A stretch of 43,615 nucleotides of DNA, from IMG/VR virus record IMGVR_UViG_3300031576_000113, positions 1 to 43,615 of that record. One strand, given 5' to 3'. Of this stretch, positions 4,427 through 17,614 are shown piece by piece. Below the pieces are notes generated by a model, which saw only the letters and a list, made by a program, of their open reading frames with translations, did not search any database and had not been told where the DNA came from. Source of the stretch: a virus. The position numbers and the translations under genes are program-made. Position 1 is the stretch's first letter. Each line of letters starts with the position of its first letter.

Positions 4427-4956
4427 AGATCCTGGACATGGAGGACATCAGGCGCGGTCTGTCCGACATGGCCCAGAACGGGGAAGGGGCTCAGAGAGCC
4501 CAGGCCTACCGCATGCTGATGCAGATGGAGTCCAGCTCGGTGACACTCCCGGAGCCGATGTCCATGGAAGAGAGAAGGGAGCGGGCCGCCCGCATCCTCA
4601 AGGCCATTGGCAGGGAAGAAGCCCATGTGGTCTACCAGCGGGCCTGGCCCACCGCCAAGTCCAAGATTGACGCGGCCCCCAAGTTTTCCCTGGAGCACCT
4701 GCCCGCCAAGGTCAGGTTCGCCGCCCAGCGGATCACCACCCTGCCCAAGTTATACCGCGCTTTCCCAGAACTCAAAGGTCCGGGCTTCCCGACCGGATAC
4801 CCCGTGGGGTACGGGAAAGTATCCCAAGCTCGATGGCTCCAGCAGAAATCCGCTCAGATTCTGCTGGATCGTTTCCAGGACGAGGCCGGCTTGAACTCCA
4901 GCACCCCAGAGGGACATGGACCGTCCGAAGAAGCTAAAATACCGCCCGCCGTCTGA
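4414..4956 (+). CDS. Candidate terminase small subunit
   Basis: 180 residues from a GTG (an ATG at 4438 is an alternative). It lies immediately upstream of the large terminase and overlaps it by about 40 bases, the usual place for the small subunit. The N-terminus is helical (LSDMAQNGEGAQRAQAYRML) and the middle is basic with helical segments, consistent with DNA recognition and oligomerisation. The assignment rests mainly on position; no diagnostic HTH is obvious. Confidence 0.55.
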   Translation: MEPVKILDMEDIRRGLSDMAQNGEGAQRAQAYRMLMQMESSSVTLPEPMSMEERRERAARILKAIGREEAHVVYQRAWPTAKSKIDAAPKFSLEHLPAKVRFAAQRITTLPKLYRAFPELKGPGFPTGYPVGYGKVSQARWLQQKSAQILLDRFQDEAGLNSSTPEGHGPSEEAKIPPAV

Positions 4957-6652
4957 TTCCACCTGGCCCGCCCAGGACGAGATCGAGCTACTCAGAGATC
5001 TCTGCAGAACCGACTTCTGGACGTTTTTCCTCTACGCCTTCGGTGCCGGAGTCAACCCCAAGGGCGACAAGTGGATCGACGAGGAAGTCCACTACCCCCT
5101 GGCGCAGTGGTTCCAGAAGCACGTTGACGAGTGGTTCGACGCCCGCGCCCAAGGCAAGGTGATCCAGAAGCACCTGGCGATCGTCATCCCTAGAGAACTG
5201 GGGAAAACCACTATTTCCCAGGCCCTGCAACTGTGGATTCAGGTCCGGGACCCGGAAGTCAGCATCTACACCGGCTCCGAGAGAACCGAGCTGTCCCAGA
5301 AGATCATCGGCGGCATCAAGGCGGTCATGGACGGCTCGGACCCCTACGCCCTGTTCACCAAGCTGTACGGCAACTGGGCGTCTCAAGCCCGCAGTTGGAC
5401 CGGCAAAGAGATCACCCACGCTGCCAGGAAGAACACCGCCAGGAAGGACCCGAGCCTGGGAACCTTCGCGGTCGAGACCTCTATTGTGGGAGCCCACCCG
5501 GACGTCTGGGTCCACGACGACCCGATCTCCTACGAGCGCATGACCTCGGACACCAACTGGCTTCAGACTGTCAACTCCCAAGTGACCTCCATGGTCCCGG
5601 TAGTCCAGGCAGACGGTCTGGTGGTGTGGGTCGGGACCCGGTACGACGACGACGATCACTTCGGGGTCGCCTTCAGGGACGAAGGTGTGGCCAGCCTGGA
5701 AGGCATGCCCACCGACTCGATCGTGGTGGAAGACACTGGCAAGTGGCACGTCTACTTCCTGGCCGCCAGAAACAAGGAAGGTGTGCCCATAGCCCCCAAG
5801 GTCTGGCCGGAGAAGCGCCTCAAGGACTACCAGCGCCGCGATCCGTTGAGGTACGCCGCCCAGGTTTTGAACGACCCGGCCGTCAGTGAGTTCAACCCCA
5901 TCACCCGAGAGCAGATTCAGGAGTGTAAGGTCAAAGCCTCCGAGGTGCCGTGGGGGTCTTTGAGGTTCGCCATCTGCTTCGACACTGCTTTCGCCCATGG
6001 GGAAAGACGGGTCGGCAAGGACGAGACGGTGTTCATCATCCATGGCTACCCCAGAAGCGGGTCTGGCGATGTTTTTGTCTGCGAGGTCCACGGCAGCCCT
6101 CTGTGGCGTGCCGAGGACTTCTGCAAGAACTTGGTAGTAGCAGTCCAGAGGTACCGGGCTCAAGGTCGTAGGGTATTTGCCCTAGCGGGGGACTTCTTTG
6201 CCTCGGGTGGTAGAGCGGGGACTTTGGAACTGGCGATGCGGAACTTCTTCCACGATGTCAACCAGCCGATGCCGATGCTCTACGAGTTCAACCGCAACAA
6301 GTCAGGACAGGACAAGACCACCCGGATCGTCAACGCCGCGACTTTCTGGGTGGACGGCCATGTCAGGTGGATAGAAGGCGCACCGGGGATGGACAAGCTC
6401 ACCGAGCAGATGGCAAAGATCGGCCAGATGATGATCAACAAGAAGATGAAGGACGATTACGTGGATGCCCACTCCGACGCCTTCCAGCCCGAACTGTACA
6501 CCTCGATGAAGCGCACCGCCCCCGGCAAGGCCCCGTGGGAAAGAGGTGCGACGGCGATCGCCATGGAAGGCCTGAACCCCAGGATGTTCGACGACGACGA
6601 AGCCCGGAACTGGGCCAGCGAGAACCCTAGAGAGCCCCTAAAACAGCCATGA
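4916..6652 (+). CDS. terL: Terminase large subunit
   Basis: 578 residues; GAGGG precedes the ATG. It packages DNA into the prohead by ATP hydrolysis and cuts concatemers. The ATPase half has a degenerate Walker A at about 92-99 (PRELGKTT) and a Walker B-like VWVHDDP at about 197-203. The RNase H-like nuclease half shows ICFDTAF at about 353-359, LAGDFFASGG at about 433-442 and a late acidic DDYVDAHSDAF near 523-533. Length is normal for the family. The stop overlaps the ATG of an HNH gene, so the homing gene lies exactly at the 3' boundary. Confidence 0.93.
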   Translation: MDRPKKLKYRPPSDSTWPAQDEIELLRDLCRTDFWTFFLYAFGAGVNPKGDKWIDEEVHYPLAQWFQKHVDEWFDARAQGKVIQKHLAIVIPRELGKTTISQALQLWIQVRDPEVSIYTGSERTELSQKIIGGIKAVMDGSDPYALFTKLYGNWASQARSWTGKEITHAARKNTARKDPSLGTFAVETSIVGAHPDVWVHDDPISYERMTSDTNWLQTVNSQVTSMVPVVQADGLVVWVGTRYDDDDHFGVAFRDEGVASLEGMPTDSIVVEDTGKWHVYFLAARNKEGVPIAPKVWPEKRLKDYQRRDPLRYAAQVLNDPAVSEFNPITREQIQECKVKASEVPWGSLRFAICFDTAFAHGERRVGKDETVFIIHGYPRSGSGDVFVCEVHGSPLWRAEDFCKNLVVAVQRYRAQGRRVFALAGDFFASGGRAGTLELAMRNFFHDVNQPMPMLYEFNRNKSGQDKTTRIVNAATFWVDGHVRWIEGAPGMDKLTEQMAKIGQMMINKKMKDDYVDAHSDAFQPELYTSMKRTAPGKAPWERGATAIAMEGLNPRMFDDDEARNWASENPREPLKQP

Positions 6653-7176
6653 ATACCCAAATCCCGCTGAATGACGGCATGGCCCTGACATTGGAGCGCA
6701 GGTTTTGGTCTAGGGTGTCAATCGGGCCTGGATGTTGGGAGTGGATGGGGCCGTTTTTTGGGGTTAAGCGCTACGGATCCATTGGCGTTTCTAGAAATGT
6801 GTCTAGGGGTGCCCATAGAGTTTGCTGGTTACTCGTGTACGGGCAAGACCCTGGGGTGCTCCAGGTTCTGCATAAGTGCGACAACAAATCTTGTGTTAGG
6901 CCAACACACCTGTTCTTGGGGACACCGGCCGACAATATGCAGGACAAGGCCAGGAAAGGCAGAAGCGTTAGCGGGACAACAAAGATAACGCGCGCTCAGG
7001 CGGAGGAGATCCGTTCTAGATACGTCCGGGGCCACAGACTAAAAGGTGGAAATATCTCTGATCTGTCGAAGGATTACGGCTTGTCCATTCACGCGGTGAG
7101 GAAGATTGTTTGGCGCCATACATGGAAGTCGGAGGGTGTCCATGGAAAGGGCAGAGAGAACGAGCCTGCTGTTTGA
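6649..7176 (+). CDS. HNH homing endonuclease (HNH_3 type)
   Basis: 175 residues starting with ATGA on the terminase stop. It shows the family order seen in most HNH genes of this window: an N-terminal FWSRV...CWEW segment, a conserved HR.CW strand, the HNH core LHKCDNKSCVRPTHLFLGT at about 80-98, then a C-terminal HTH-like tail (ITRAQAEEIRSRY...IHAVRKI). It probably nicks a site at this junction. Its last 35 bases overlap the start of the next gene. Confidence 0.9.
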   Translation: MNTQIPLNDGMALTLERRFWSRVSIGPGCWEWMGPFFGVKRYGSIGVSRNVSRGAHRVCWLLVYGQDPGVLQVLHKCDNKSCVRPTHLFLGTPADNMQDKARKGRSVSGTTKITRAQAEEIRSRYVRGHRLKGGNISDLSKDYGLSIHAVRKIVWRHTWKSEGVHGKGRENEPAV

Positions 7177-9406
7177 TTCTTTGACGGGCACCGCCAGAGA
7201 GGCCCCCAAGTCCTACGCCACCAGAACCACCTGCCGAGCTTGCGGCGACCCGCACCTGGAGACCGTGCTGGACCTGGGAGACCAGTACCTGCCCCGGTTC
7301 GTCAAGGACATCGACCTGTCTTTGCCCCAGGCCCCGCTGGAACTGGTCAGGTGTTCCTGTGGGCTGTTGCAACTCAGGCACACGGTGGACCCTGACCTGG
7401 TGTTCCGAGAGTACTGGTATCAAAGCTCGATCAACCAGACCATGAAGGCCGCCTTGGCCGAGGTGGTAAAAGACGGCACTCGCTACCACCGGCACGGAAG
7501 ATGGCTGGATATCGGGGCCAACGACGGGTTCCTGCTTTCTCAAGTCCCGCAGTCTTTCCAGCGTATCGCCTGCGAGCCGGCGTTGAACCTGGCGGACAAG
7601 GCCAAGAAACACGCTGACTTGGTGGTCTCCAACTACTTCTCTGGAGAGATTGCCGCGTTCCACGAGGCGGACGTTATAACTTCGTGCGCGATGTTCTACG
7701 ATTTGGACGATCCCAAGCGTTTCGTCAGAGACATCTACAAGTGCCTGAGCCCGGACGGAGTCTGGATCAACCAGCTGAACGACTCTCCCACCATGCTTCA
7801 GATGAACGACTTCGGGGCGATCTGCCTGCCTCCGAATGGGCTTGTCATGGCAGAGCGGGGAGCGGTTCCCATCGCGGACATCAAGGTTGGAGAACGAGTC
7901 CTTACCCATCGCGGGCGCTACAAGCCGGTTGTGGAAACGATGAAGCGCGAGTTTCACGGCAATCTGGTGAAACTGCGAGCGTACGGTTTTGGGGCGGATA
8001 CGATTCTCACCGACAACCATCCGGTGCTTGTCTACGGCGAAGAAGGGAATCGCTGGATTGCGGCCGGCGAGATCAAGGTGGGGGACAGAGTTGGCAGGCC
8101 GGTTATCCGCAAGAGGACCGATGTTCAAACCGTGGCGATGAAGTGTGGTCATGGCAGGCAAGGCATGGACTACGAACCGGTGGCTTTGGACGACGACCTG
8201 CTCACGGTCGCTGGCTACTACCTTGCTGAAGGATTTGTCCATAAGGGCGCGAGCACGGTCAAGGCGACGTTTACGTTCGGCCTCAACGAAAGCGAAGTCG
8301 GACTAGCAGGTGACTGCGCCGAGAGAATCAGGAGGATCGGATTCTCTGCCCACCAGCGCAAGGCCGCGACCTCCAACACAGTGACTGCCTGCGGGGGGAT
8401 CGCTCGCTGGCTCAAAGAGACGTTCGGGACTGGAAGCGCCAGGAAGGATGTTCCGGCGTGGGTGGTCTCGCTCCCTAACGAGAAGTTGTCGGCCCTGTAC
8501 CGTGGATACATGGCTGGCGACGGATACGCCTATCGAGAGTCGTACATGAGAGCCAGCACCGTCTCGGCTAACCTGGCGAGAAGCGTGTCGATGGTGGCGG
8601 CCAACCTTGGGTTCTGTGCGTCGATCTCCGCCCAAAAGCGCCCCGCGCTCTGTGTCGTTGGCGGAAGAACGGTCAACCAACGTCCGCTTTGGGACGTATT
8701 GGTGCGCGAGAAATCCAAGAAATCCATCAAGGTAAACAACGATGGGGAGTTTCAGTGGGGGGTGATTCGAGCAGTGTCTAGCGTTCCCCACGACGGTGAC
8801 GTTTACAACATCTCTGTTTTGGACGACCACAGTTATGTCACGCCGGGGATGACGGTTCACAACTGCCACGAGCACCTGACCTACTGGGACGTTCTGAGCT
8901 TGGACCGGCTCTATACCGCCTGCGGCCTCACCATCGTGGACATCTCTCATAACCAAGTGAACGGCGGATCGATGCGGGTCACGGCCATGAAGCACGGCAC
9001 CCACGTTAACCTGATCGGGGCGAGGTGGGTCAACTACCTGGACGCGGTCAAGTTTGGGAAACGAGTGGTGAAGTGGAAGAAGAACATGAAGCAGCTGCTG
9101 GACTCGATCACCTCCCCGATCTGGCTTTACGGGGCCTCGACCAAGGGCTGCGTGATGCTCCAGTACCTGGACCACAACCAGGGGTTTGTGGGGATTGCGG
9201 ACCGCAACCCGGCCAAGTTCGGGCTGCATATGTCGGGCTGCTGGGTTCCGGTGGTGGACGAGGCCACCATGCGCCGGGAAAAGCCCGAGTATATTTTTGT
9301 CCTGCCCTGGGCTTTCAAGTCCGAGTTCGTCGAGAGAGAGCGAGAGTTGCTGGGCTCGGGAAGCACCCTTATTTTTCCGCTGCCGCAGATCGAGCTGGTC
9401 CTGTAA
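7142..9406 (+). CDS. Sugar C-methyltransferase-like protein with intein
   Basis: 754 residues before splicing, 407 after removal of a 347-residue intein, the normal length for C-methyltransferases of the Methyltransf_13/11/14 layout. A GGAGGG decides the start at 7142. Host-protein parts: zinc knuckle C31-C34 and C71-C73, SAM-binding LDIGANDGFLL at about 120-130, and the family motif DFGAI^CHEHLTYW split by the intein. The C-terminal domain has NGGSMRVTA and a Rossmann-like GASTKG. Family members methylate carbons of nucleotide-activated deoxysugars (TylC3 type). It lies with FkbM and glycosyltransferase genes, so it may modify a sugar destined for the virion or cell surface. Confidence 0.85.
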   Translation: MERAERTSLLFDSLTGTAREAPKSYATRTTCRACGDPHLETVLDLGDQYLPRFVKDIDLSLPQAPLELVRCSCGLLQLRHTVDPDLVFREYWYQSSINQTMKAALAEVVKDGTRYHRHGRWLDIGANDGFLLSQVPQSFQRIACEPALNLADKAKKHADLVVSNYFSGEIAAFHEADVITSCAMFYDLDDPKRFVRDIYKCLSPDGVWINQLNDSPTMLQMNDFGAICLPPNGLVMAERGAVPIADIKVGERVLTHRGRYKPVVETMKREFHGNLVKLRAYGFGADTILTDNHPVLVYGEEGNRWIAAGEIKVGDRVGRPVIRKRTDVQTVAMKCGHGRQGMDYEPVALDDDLLTVAGYYLAEGFVHKGASTVKATFTFGLNESEVGLAGDCAERIRRIGFSAHQRKAATSNTVTACGGIARWLKETFGTGSARKDVPAWVVSLPNEKLSALYRGYMAGDGYAYRESYMRASTVSANLARSVSMVAANLGFCASISAQKRPALCVVGGRTVNQRPLWDVLVREKSKKSIKVNNDGEFQWGVIRAVSSVPHDGDVYNISVLDDHSYVTPGMTVHNCHEHLTYWDVLSLDRLYTACGLTIVDISHNQVNGGSMRVTAMKHGTHVNLIGARWVNYLDAVKFGKRVVKWKKNMKQLLDSITSPIWLYGASTKGCVMLQYLDHNQGFVGIADRNPAKFGLHMSGCWVPVVDEATMRREKPEYIFVLPWAFKSEFVERERELLGSGSTLIFPLPQIELVL
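7823..8863 (+). other. Intein with LAGLIDADG homing endonuclease
   Basis: 347 codons in frame inside the C-methyltransferase. It begins with Cys (CLPPNGLVMAERG), has a block B TDNHPVLV and block F VYNISVLDDHSYV, and ends in VHN followed by Cys as the +1 residue. All residues needed for splicing are visible. Two dodecapeptide motifs (TVAGYYLAEGFV near 8206-8241 and LYRGYMAGDGYA near 8497-8532) mark a two-motif LAGLIDADG endonuclease. The insertion lies immediately before the conserved CHEH motif, so the enzyme should be inactive until splicing. Confidence 0.92.
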
Positions 9407-12300: not shown

Positions 12301-12547
12301 CAGTCTCGGCTCGCTCGTAGATAAGCTGATCACCACCAGCACGAAACTTTGGCACGTTCAAGACGTGGTTCACCACGCCGCCTCCATGGGAGAAGGCTTG
12401 GACGCCGACACTGTCCAGAAACTTGCTATCCTGAACCTAGAGCGCAACCGGCTGATGACCGAGATCGACGAGACCCTGGATGAAGCCGTCAAAGCCGGTG
12501 GGGCGCAAGTGGATGCCCGCATAAAGTTGGTACATGATTCATCCTAG
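12293..12547 (+). CDS. Small helical protein of the sugar cassette
   Basis: 84 residues from a TTG overlapping the glycosyltransferase stop. The sequence LWHVQDVVHHAASM, then LNLERNRLMTEIDETLDEAV, resembles small helical proteins (DUF4254-like) that accompany glycosyltransferase genes. The motif 'kLWh.qD' followed by 'LN..RN.L..EID' is what I recognise. Possibly an accessory of the glycosylation enzymes. Confidence 0.65.
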   Translation: MSDSLGSLVDKLITTSTKLWHVQDVVHHAASMGEGLDADTVQKLAILNLERNRLMTEIDETLDEAVKAGGAQVDARIKLVHDSS

Positions 12548-13004
12548 CAAGAGCGTTCGGGAATGCGTTAGATGCGCTAAGTGGGTCGCGCTAGATTTTT
12601 TCTATAGGCGGCAAGGAAGGCCTCACGGTTGGTGCAGACCATGCACGCTGCTCTACATGAAGGCGCGTCGCAGGCGACTTGCAAAAGAGAACAGGGAGAA
12701 GGCGAGGGCGTACCGAATCGCTAACTATTCTGCGGTGCTGGAGAGACAGGCGGCCTGGAGAGCGGCCAATCGCTGGTATCGTAGGGCGAGTCGGAAAGGT
12801 GTCCAGGCGCGAGACGCGGTTTATCGGGCCGTAAAGTCTGGCAAACTCATTAAGCCCGACCGGTGTTCGATGTGTGGCCGGGATTCTGGTGGTCCTGGAT
12901 GGAGGATCGAGGCCCATCATGAGGACCACTCCAAGTGGCTTGAGGTGGTTTGGCTTTGTCGCGGTTGTCACGGTCTCACAAGACGTGTTGATAGAATGGC
13001 TTGA
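12534..13004 (+). CDS. HNH endonuclease with N-terminal zinc finger
   Basis: 156 residues, a different HNH type from the others. N-terminal CVRCAK...FFYRRQGRPHGWCRPC forms a zinc site; a long Arg-rich helix follows; C-terminal CSMCGRD...EAHHEDHSKWLEVVWLCRGCH is the HNH core with structural Cys residues. It overlaps the preceding gene by 14 bases and lies just before the portal gene, a typical homing position. Confidence 0.85.
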   Translation: MIHPSKSVRECVRCAKWVALDFFYRRQGRPHGWCRPCTLLYMKARRRRLAKENREKARAYRIANYSAVLERQAAWRAANRWYRRASRKGVQARDAVYRAVKSGKLIKPDRCSMCGRDSGGPGWRIEAHHEDHSKWLEVVWLCRGCHGLTRRVDRMA

Positions 13005-17046: not shown

Positions 17047-17075
17047 TTGAAGTATAACGACTTACGTGATAGACT
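17047..17075 (+). promoter_or_regulatory. Possible promoter after the capsid gene
   Basis: TTGAAG (17047-17052), a 17-base spacer, then TAGACT (17070-17075). It is a moderate match to a sigma-70-type promoter and could drive the HNH gene at 17123 or the genes downstream. Confidence 0.35.
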
Positions 17076-17107
17076 GCGTGCGGGTACCCAATCTACACCA
17101 CGCAGTC
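17072..17107 (+). terminator. 9-bp hairpin between capsid and HNH genes
   Basis: GACTGCGTG (17072-17080) and CACGCAGTC (17099-17107) are perfect inverted repeats with an 18-base loop, ending five bases before the GGAGG at 17112. No T-run follows. It may attenuate transcription after the highly expressed capsid gene or regulate the HNH gene. Confidence 0.4.
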
Positions 17108-17122
17108 GTCACGGAGGTTGTT

Positions 17123-17614
17123 GTGCCGAAGAAGCTTGGCGACAAGTATGACAGATGGAACATCGAACTCGCACGGATGGATAAGGTGGATGGTTGTTGG
17201 ATCTGGAAGGGGACAAGAGCGCCAAATGGGTATGGCCGGTTTTTTGTGGGACGGTTCGACCATCAGGTGCGATGGATGCCAGCTCATCGTTTCTCCTGGG
17301 ACTACCATCATGGGCCGATCCCGCTGGGTCTGTGTGTCTGTCATACGTGCGATCAAAAGCTTTGCATTAACCCTGCCCACCTGTTTATCGGGACTCACGG
17401 CGAGAACATGCGAGATCGAAACGAGAAGCGTCGTCAGGCCAGGGGAGAGGGGCATGGAGTTGCCAAGCTGGACGACCTGACGGTCCAGTGGATTCGCTCG
17501 CAGCATCGTAGCGGGCGAGGCCACAAGAGAATCGCCAGAGACCTCGGGGTGAACAAGTCAACGGTTGCCAGGGTGTTGAAAGGCGAAACCTGGAAGCACG
17601 TCAAGGAGGCATGA
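17123..17614 (+). CDS. HNH homing endonuclease (HNH_3 type)
   Basis: 163 residues from a GTG; GGAGG at 17112-17116 decides the start. CWIWKGTRAPNGYGRF, HRFSWDYHHGPIP, the HNH core CHTCDQKLCINPAHLFIGT and the tail VQWIRSQHRSGRGHKRIARDLGVNKSTVARVL (HTH) are all present, so it looks intact. It lies between the capsid gene and the next small virion gene. Confidence 0.9.
   Translation: MPKKLGDKYDRWNIELARMDKVDGCWIWKGTRAPNGYGRFFVGRFDHQVRWMPAHRFSWDYHHGPIPLGLCVCHTCDQKLCINPAHLFIGTHGENMRDRNEKRRQARGEGHGVAKLDDLTVQWIRSQHRSGRGHKRIARDLGVNKSTVARVLKGETWKHVKEA

Follow-up and report, generated by a model that had tools for sequence, protein, structure and literature searches.

Inteins show a general trend toward replication or packaging proteins as hosts, and their insertion into active centres is a general property that makes intein loss hard (PMC5050341; PMC7765530). 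In phages, the mycobacteriophage DNMT inteins provide the comparison for elements inserted in DNA methyltransferases (PMC5050341). Full-length intein-like inserts are also carried by the P1 Dmt (L061, positions 1501-2523; OP279344.1) and its P1-like relatives, at VGGTP/CQAFS (here and below, the slash within a motif marks the junction), where the C5-methyltransferase half has its catalytic Cys; the annotation in the record reads "Dmt" only.

The DNA studied here is the whole viral record IMGVR_UViG_3300031576_000113 (43,615 bases, hereafter the window). The original prediction placed an intein at 7823-8863, in a sugar C-methyltransferase, with Cys1, a block B TDNH, a block F, a final VHN, a Cys at +1 and two LAGLIDADG motifs. 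These coordinates are exact: the translation from CLPPNGL to MTVHN gives 347 amino acids, stop-free and in one frame with the host gene, and its removal leaves a protein of 407 amino acids when the ATG at 7142 is used, which is the length that had been announced. The precursor is organized as follows.

7106-9406, plus strand: open frame containing the whole precursor and the intein in one frame
7142, plus strand: ATG start of the precursor, with GGAGG just 5′
7142-7822, plus strand: N-extein of 227 aa ending ...DFGAI, which holds the zinc- and SAM-binding domains of a sugar C-methyltransferase-type enzyme (Pfam Methyltransf_13, Methyltransf_23; ungapped junction alignment to the intein-free contigs L002-L005)
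7823-8863, plus strand: class 1 intein, 347 aa, with LAGLIDADG/DOD homing endonuclease (motifs, Pfam, NCBIfam, AlphaFold model and structure matches)
7823-7861, plus strand: block A, nucleophile Cys1, intein aa 1-13
7991-8032, plus strand: block B, T-x-x-H = TDNH, intein aa 57-70 (GADTILTDNHPVLV)
8198-8233, plus strand: block C, first LAGLIDADG motif VAGYYLAEG, acidic residue retained, intein aa 126-137
8444-8467, plus strand: block D region KDVPAWVV, catalytic Lys position (K208 and P211 invariant)
8495-8527, plus strand: block E, second LAGLIDADG motif YRGYMAGDGY, acidic residue retained, intein aa 225-235
8801-8848, plus strand: block F VYNISVLDDHSYVTPG, Asn replacing the usual Asp at F:4, intein aa 327-342 (motif; NCBIfam intein_Cterm)
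8849-8863, plus strand: block G MTVHN, terminal His-Asn, intein aa 343-347, followed by Cys+1
8864-9406, plus strand: C-extein, 180 aa and stop, starting at Cys+1 of CHEH, C-methyltransferase C-terminal domain (Pfam Methyltransf_14, E 3.6e-23)
8864-8875, plus strand: CHEH motif, aligned to TcaB9 Tyr222-Asp223-Glu224-His225

The class 1 splicing residues are all present (Cys1, TDNH and VHN/Cys+1), and the Asn at F:4 is common to most aligned phage relatives. Within the intein, Pfam LAGLIDADG_3 (E 2e-5) and NCBIfam intein_Cterm both score above cut-off. The Pfam Intein_splicing profile reaches E 1.1e-7 and 32.2 bits, slightly under its cut-off of 35.8 bits, which is unsurprising because the endonuclease cuts the splicing domain in two. 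An AlphaFold model of the intein alone (pLDDT 78.3, pTM 0.76) was compared with solved structures using Foldseek: the nearest are TliVMA, PI-SceI, PI-PkoII and PI-PfuI (E 1.6e-16 to 1.3e-10), and the matches to the TliVMA, PI-SceI and Mtu RecA inteins identify the Hint splicing fold. The model of the whole precursor, poor over the intein (mean pLDDT 63.7), was left aside. Hence, every predicted block was found, the endonuclease motifs keep their acidic residues on closer alignment, and 7823-8863 is a class 1 intein with a two-motif DOD endonuclease, chance being ruled out.

The exteins match Pfam Methyltransf_13, Methyltransf_23 and Methyltransf_14 in that order, all above cut-off. Once joined, they form a protein of 407 residues whose alignment to D-mycarose 3-C-methyltransferase 4rv9 (E 2.8e-32) and to TcaB9 spans its full length. 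The only solved homologues found by running the family profile against the PDB are sugar C-methyltransferases of the TcaB9/TylC3 type. By homology, the extein is thus a sugar C-methyltransferase-type enzyme of this fold, as had been predicted, its putative substrate being a nucleotide-linked keto sugar. The neighbours of its gene in this phage are two FkbM methyltransferases and one glycosyltransferase, and in a cyanophage the gene of a homologue is flanked on one side by that of a GDP-mannose dehydratase and on the other by that of a GDP-fucose synthase. The +1 Cys, the Glu and the second His of CHEH align to TcaB9 chain residues 224, 226 and 227, which we take to be Tyr222, Glu224 and His225, assuming a two-residue tag offset; these are reportedly active-site residues probed by mutagenesis (entries 4e2w-4e33). 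Both catalytic residues of the (Y/C)xEH motif, Glu and His, are present in the extein, in alignment with both TcaB9 and TylC3, and the Cys, the Glu (E577) and the second His (H578) are invariant in 15 relatives.

This position bears on two claims of the original prediction. It held that the intein splits the most conserved motif of the enzyme: CHEH is indeed highly conserved, but the intein immediately precedes its Cys and leaves the motif unsplit, and the conservation peak lies about 50 codons upstream. At the DNA level, the site ranks in the 91st-99th percentile of conservation (windows of 24-60 bases), with a mean identity among these phages of 0.73 over 30 bases vs a gene average of 0.53. 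It also held that splicing controls activity. Since the intein adjoins the catalytic residues, the unspliced precursor is very likely inactive and splicing very likely required, as judged from the alignments, but conditional control is unsupported.

The gene exists without the intein in related phages. In four phage contigs (L002-L005), the methyltransferase (48-57% identity) crosses the junction with no gap and carries a Cys at +1 in all cases; TerL lies directly 5′ of it in 4/4, and part of the glycan cassette of our phage is found around it. We considered that the +1 Cys could have been brought in by the intein and rejected this idea, as intein-free phage and bacterial homologues carry it too. 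The intein is present in some homologues only, always at one precise site. Genes that carry an intein are dispersed over the extein tree, where that of this phage groups, with good support, with the genes of intein-free phages. Over 90 bases, the DNA of this phage is just 63-70% identical to the empty sites of its closest relatives; therefore, no recent homing event is seen. Among the matches listed when plasmid records were searched with the precursor, methyltransferases are too short for an intein; three of the four that were read have CHEH with Cys, and in the fourth the motif escaped a simple pattern. At the DNA level, the locus had no match among annotated phages.

Upstream of the methyltransferase, the locus comprises two further genes.

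4916-6652, plus strand: terminase large subunit, TerL (PHROG terminase large subunit); in intein-free relatives it directly adjoins the methyltransferase gene
6649-7176, plus strand: free-standing HNH endonuclease gene between TerL and the methyltransferase, missing there in L002-L005 (Pfam HNH_3, 8.8e-13; synteny)

Two homing-type insertions within 2.3 kb, i.e., this HNH gene and the intein, set the phage apart from L002-L005. Further endonuclease genes are found at 12534-13004 and 17066-17614; together with 6649-7176, they make two HNH and one endonuclease VII-like genes of low GC3. The GC3 of the intein is 0.70, against 0.58-0.65 for these three endonuclease genes and 0.76-0.86 for most core genes (0.71 for one FkbM gene). 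This shift of the intein toward the other endonuclease genes of the phage fits a horizontal arrival.

The search for inteins at CHEH in other C-methyltransferases, suggested with the original prediction, returned three. An exact DNA pattern for VHN/CHEH was scanned across viral and genome collections; one viral and two archaeal loci read through as intein and methyltransferase, and the remaining genome matches were discarded as chance, their frames being short or unrelated. The three loci belong to a 390-kb (jumbo) phage (L022; whole ORF in L043; also L149), a Woesearchaeota MAG (L032/L044) and a Nitrososphaeraceae MAG (L027/L054). All have the identical I/CHEH junction, and Pfam confirms their C-methyltransferase exteins. 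In the Nitrososphaeraceae MAG, contig L049 holds the N half of a second intein-bearing copy with the same junction; L049 and L054 are 88% identical over their overlap and both end at contig ends. The intein copies of this MAG have lost the block C acidic residue (ATG), whereas the intein of our phage keeps both acidic residues. Phylum-wide pattern searches (371 and 398 genomes) gave no additional archaeal cases, so that archaeal I/CHEH inteins are rare (1/371 and 1/398 genomes sampled in the two phyla). Viral pattern searches with HN/CHEH[LVI]xY and HN/CNEHLEYY revealed no additional viral cases, and viral contigs scanned with the full precursor gave no match; the scan of viral contigs with the spliced extein did yield homologues. 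Since same-junction inteins occur in three distant genomes, the I/CHEH site is a repeated target.

We are confident in the following explanation: a mobile class 1 intein, its LAGLIDADG homing endonuclease in frame, sits at CHEH of a sugar C-methyltransferase, splices to give the 407-residue enzyme and homes among phages. The intein anatomy, the intein-free alleles at the locus, the same-junction inteins elsewhere and the intact endonuclease acidic residues are direct observations; splicing, cutting and homing, as well as the enzyme substrate, are inferred. A selfish intein would have entered this gene of a tailed, SU10-like phage between the last codon of the N-extein and the Cys codon of CHEH. 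The precursor would fold, Cys1 and Cys+1 would perform the N-S acyl shift and the transesterification, and the terminal Asn would cyclise, so that the intein is excised and an intact 407-residue enzyme is released. During co-infection, the endonuclease would cut the empty site of related phages and repair would copy the intein in. The position at the catalytic motif would favor persistence: the DNA target is conserved, and a loss that is not precise ruins the enzyme. A regulatory intein, whose conditional splicing (depending on redox, temperature or infection stage) would delay methyltransferase activity, could also account for an insertion beside catalytic residues and for a precursor that is very likely inactive, and its Cys-based chemistry could respond to redox. 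However, four relatives have the gene at the same locus without any intein, inteins at I/CHEH are rare in the archaeal genomes sampled, and active centres are the usual site of inteins; insertion at a catalytic motif alone is therefore no hint of control, and we regard this role as improbable. Even less credible is a decayed element that has lost splicing, or whose endonuclease is dead, in an inactive gene: the Asn at F:4 could be read in this way, but the frame is open, all splicing residues are retained, as are the two acidic residues of the endonuclease, and the extein keeps family-conserved residues and a phage-typical GC3.

A mobile intein at CHEH being our preferred explanation, its origin with respect to the other inteins of the site is a more balanced matter, the choice between one and two invasions being about even. 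The three same-junction inteins are 40-45% identical mutually, and that of our phage is 22-25% identical to them, the level of unrelated inteins. With a profile of the three, it ranks under 12 unrelated inteins. In an equal-size leave-one-out control, 11/11 other inteins score best with their own group (one control, L141, being grouped by similarity, without an identical flank), whereas for the intein of this phage its own site group comes fifth, with 110 bits, and the phage DNA-methyltransferase inteins come best, with 152 bits. On these scores, it may have entered this junction independently of the other three. On the other hand, it could be an old allele of the jumbo-phage and archaeal lineage, with one origin at the site. 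The junction is identical, AU tests leave a single clade unrejected (p 0.18 and 0.52, and p 0.92 in a 67-row case where the constrained tree outscored the quick free search), and for the Nitrososphaeraceae intein that of our phage is the best match outside its own site group; we give this single origin a little under an even chance. We put at one chance in two the wider proposal that two or more invasions of the I/CHEH junction took place, by inteins unrelated to each other (the jumbo phage and two archaeal phyla sharing one lineage, our phage having the other), and that phage glycan-modifying enzymes (C-methyltransferase, GT4, GT2 and DegT aminotransferase) form a largely unrecorded class of intein hosts, struck at active-site motifs.

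An intein profile scan located phage-contig inteins in other glycan enzymes (L117 2501-3616, L120 2501-3844, L087 2501-3664 and L126 2501-3562), inserted at EGWNLPL/CEAMACGTP in GT4, EYIMW/CDSDD in GT2 and LLEDN/CQAYG in a DegT aminotransferase. One GT4-type phage enzyme among these seems to contain two inteins, and so does a phage protein, probably a portal (L089 2501-3634 and downstream). The original prediction had contrasted the carbohydrate-modifying host with the usual replication or packaging proteins. The general trend stands, but the exception has company in the jumbo phage, the two archaeal MAGs, the glycosyltransferases and the sugar aminotransferase; with the GT4, GT2 and DegT phage inteins, such a host is therefore unusual but not unique. 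No earlier account of a sugar C-methyltransferase carrying an intein was found in the open-access papers searched. The host protein and the insertion site are new as far as this literature goes, the element itself being an ordinary, probably mobile intein. A carbohydrate-modifying accessory enzyme thus joins the list of intein hosts, with one active-site junction used in both phages and archaea. This bears on whether inteins choose essential genes or merely conserved, easily reached DNA targets. Moreover, the site occurs in nature both occupied and empty, and the inteins that fill it are of at least two very different kinds, which offers material on the limits that extein context sets to splicing.

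Compared with known systems, the spliced extein shares full-length homology with the TcaB9/TylC3 sugar 3-C-methyltransferases (PDB 3ndi, 4e2w-4e33, 4rv9), which differ in having no intein and a Tyr where the phage enzyme has its +1 Cys. The inteins of the jumbo phage (L043/L149), of the Woesearchaeota MAG (L032/L044) and of the Nitrososphaeraceae MAG (L049, L027/L054) share with ours the Methyltransf_14 host family, the I/CHEH junction and the span from Cys1 to VHN/Cys, and are unlike it in sequence, as the identities above indicate. The LAGLIDADG inteins of phage DNA methyltransferases (Pseudomonas phage Lana, P1 Dmt, Mannheimia phage 587AP2) are likewise full-length class 1 elements with a DOD endonuclease; they align with ours end to end at 25-29% identity and, in the C5-methyltransferase cases, are inserted at the catalytic Cys motif. 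Their hosts, however, methylate DNA and the motif is unrelated, whereas the host described here is a sugar C-methyltransferase-type enzyme.
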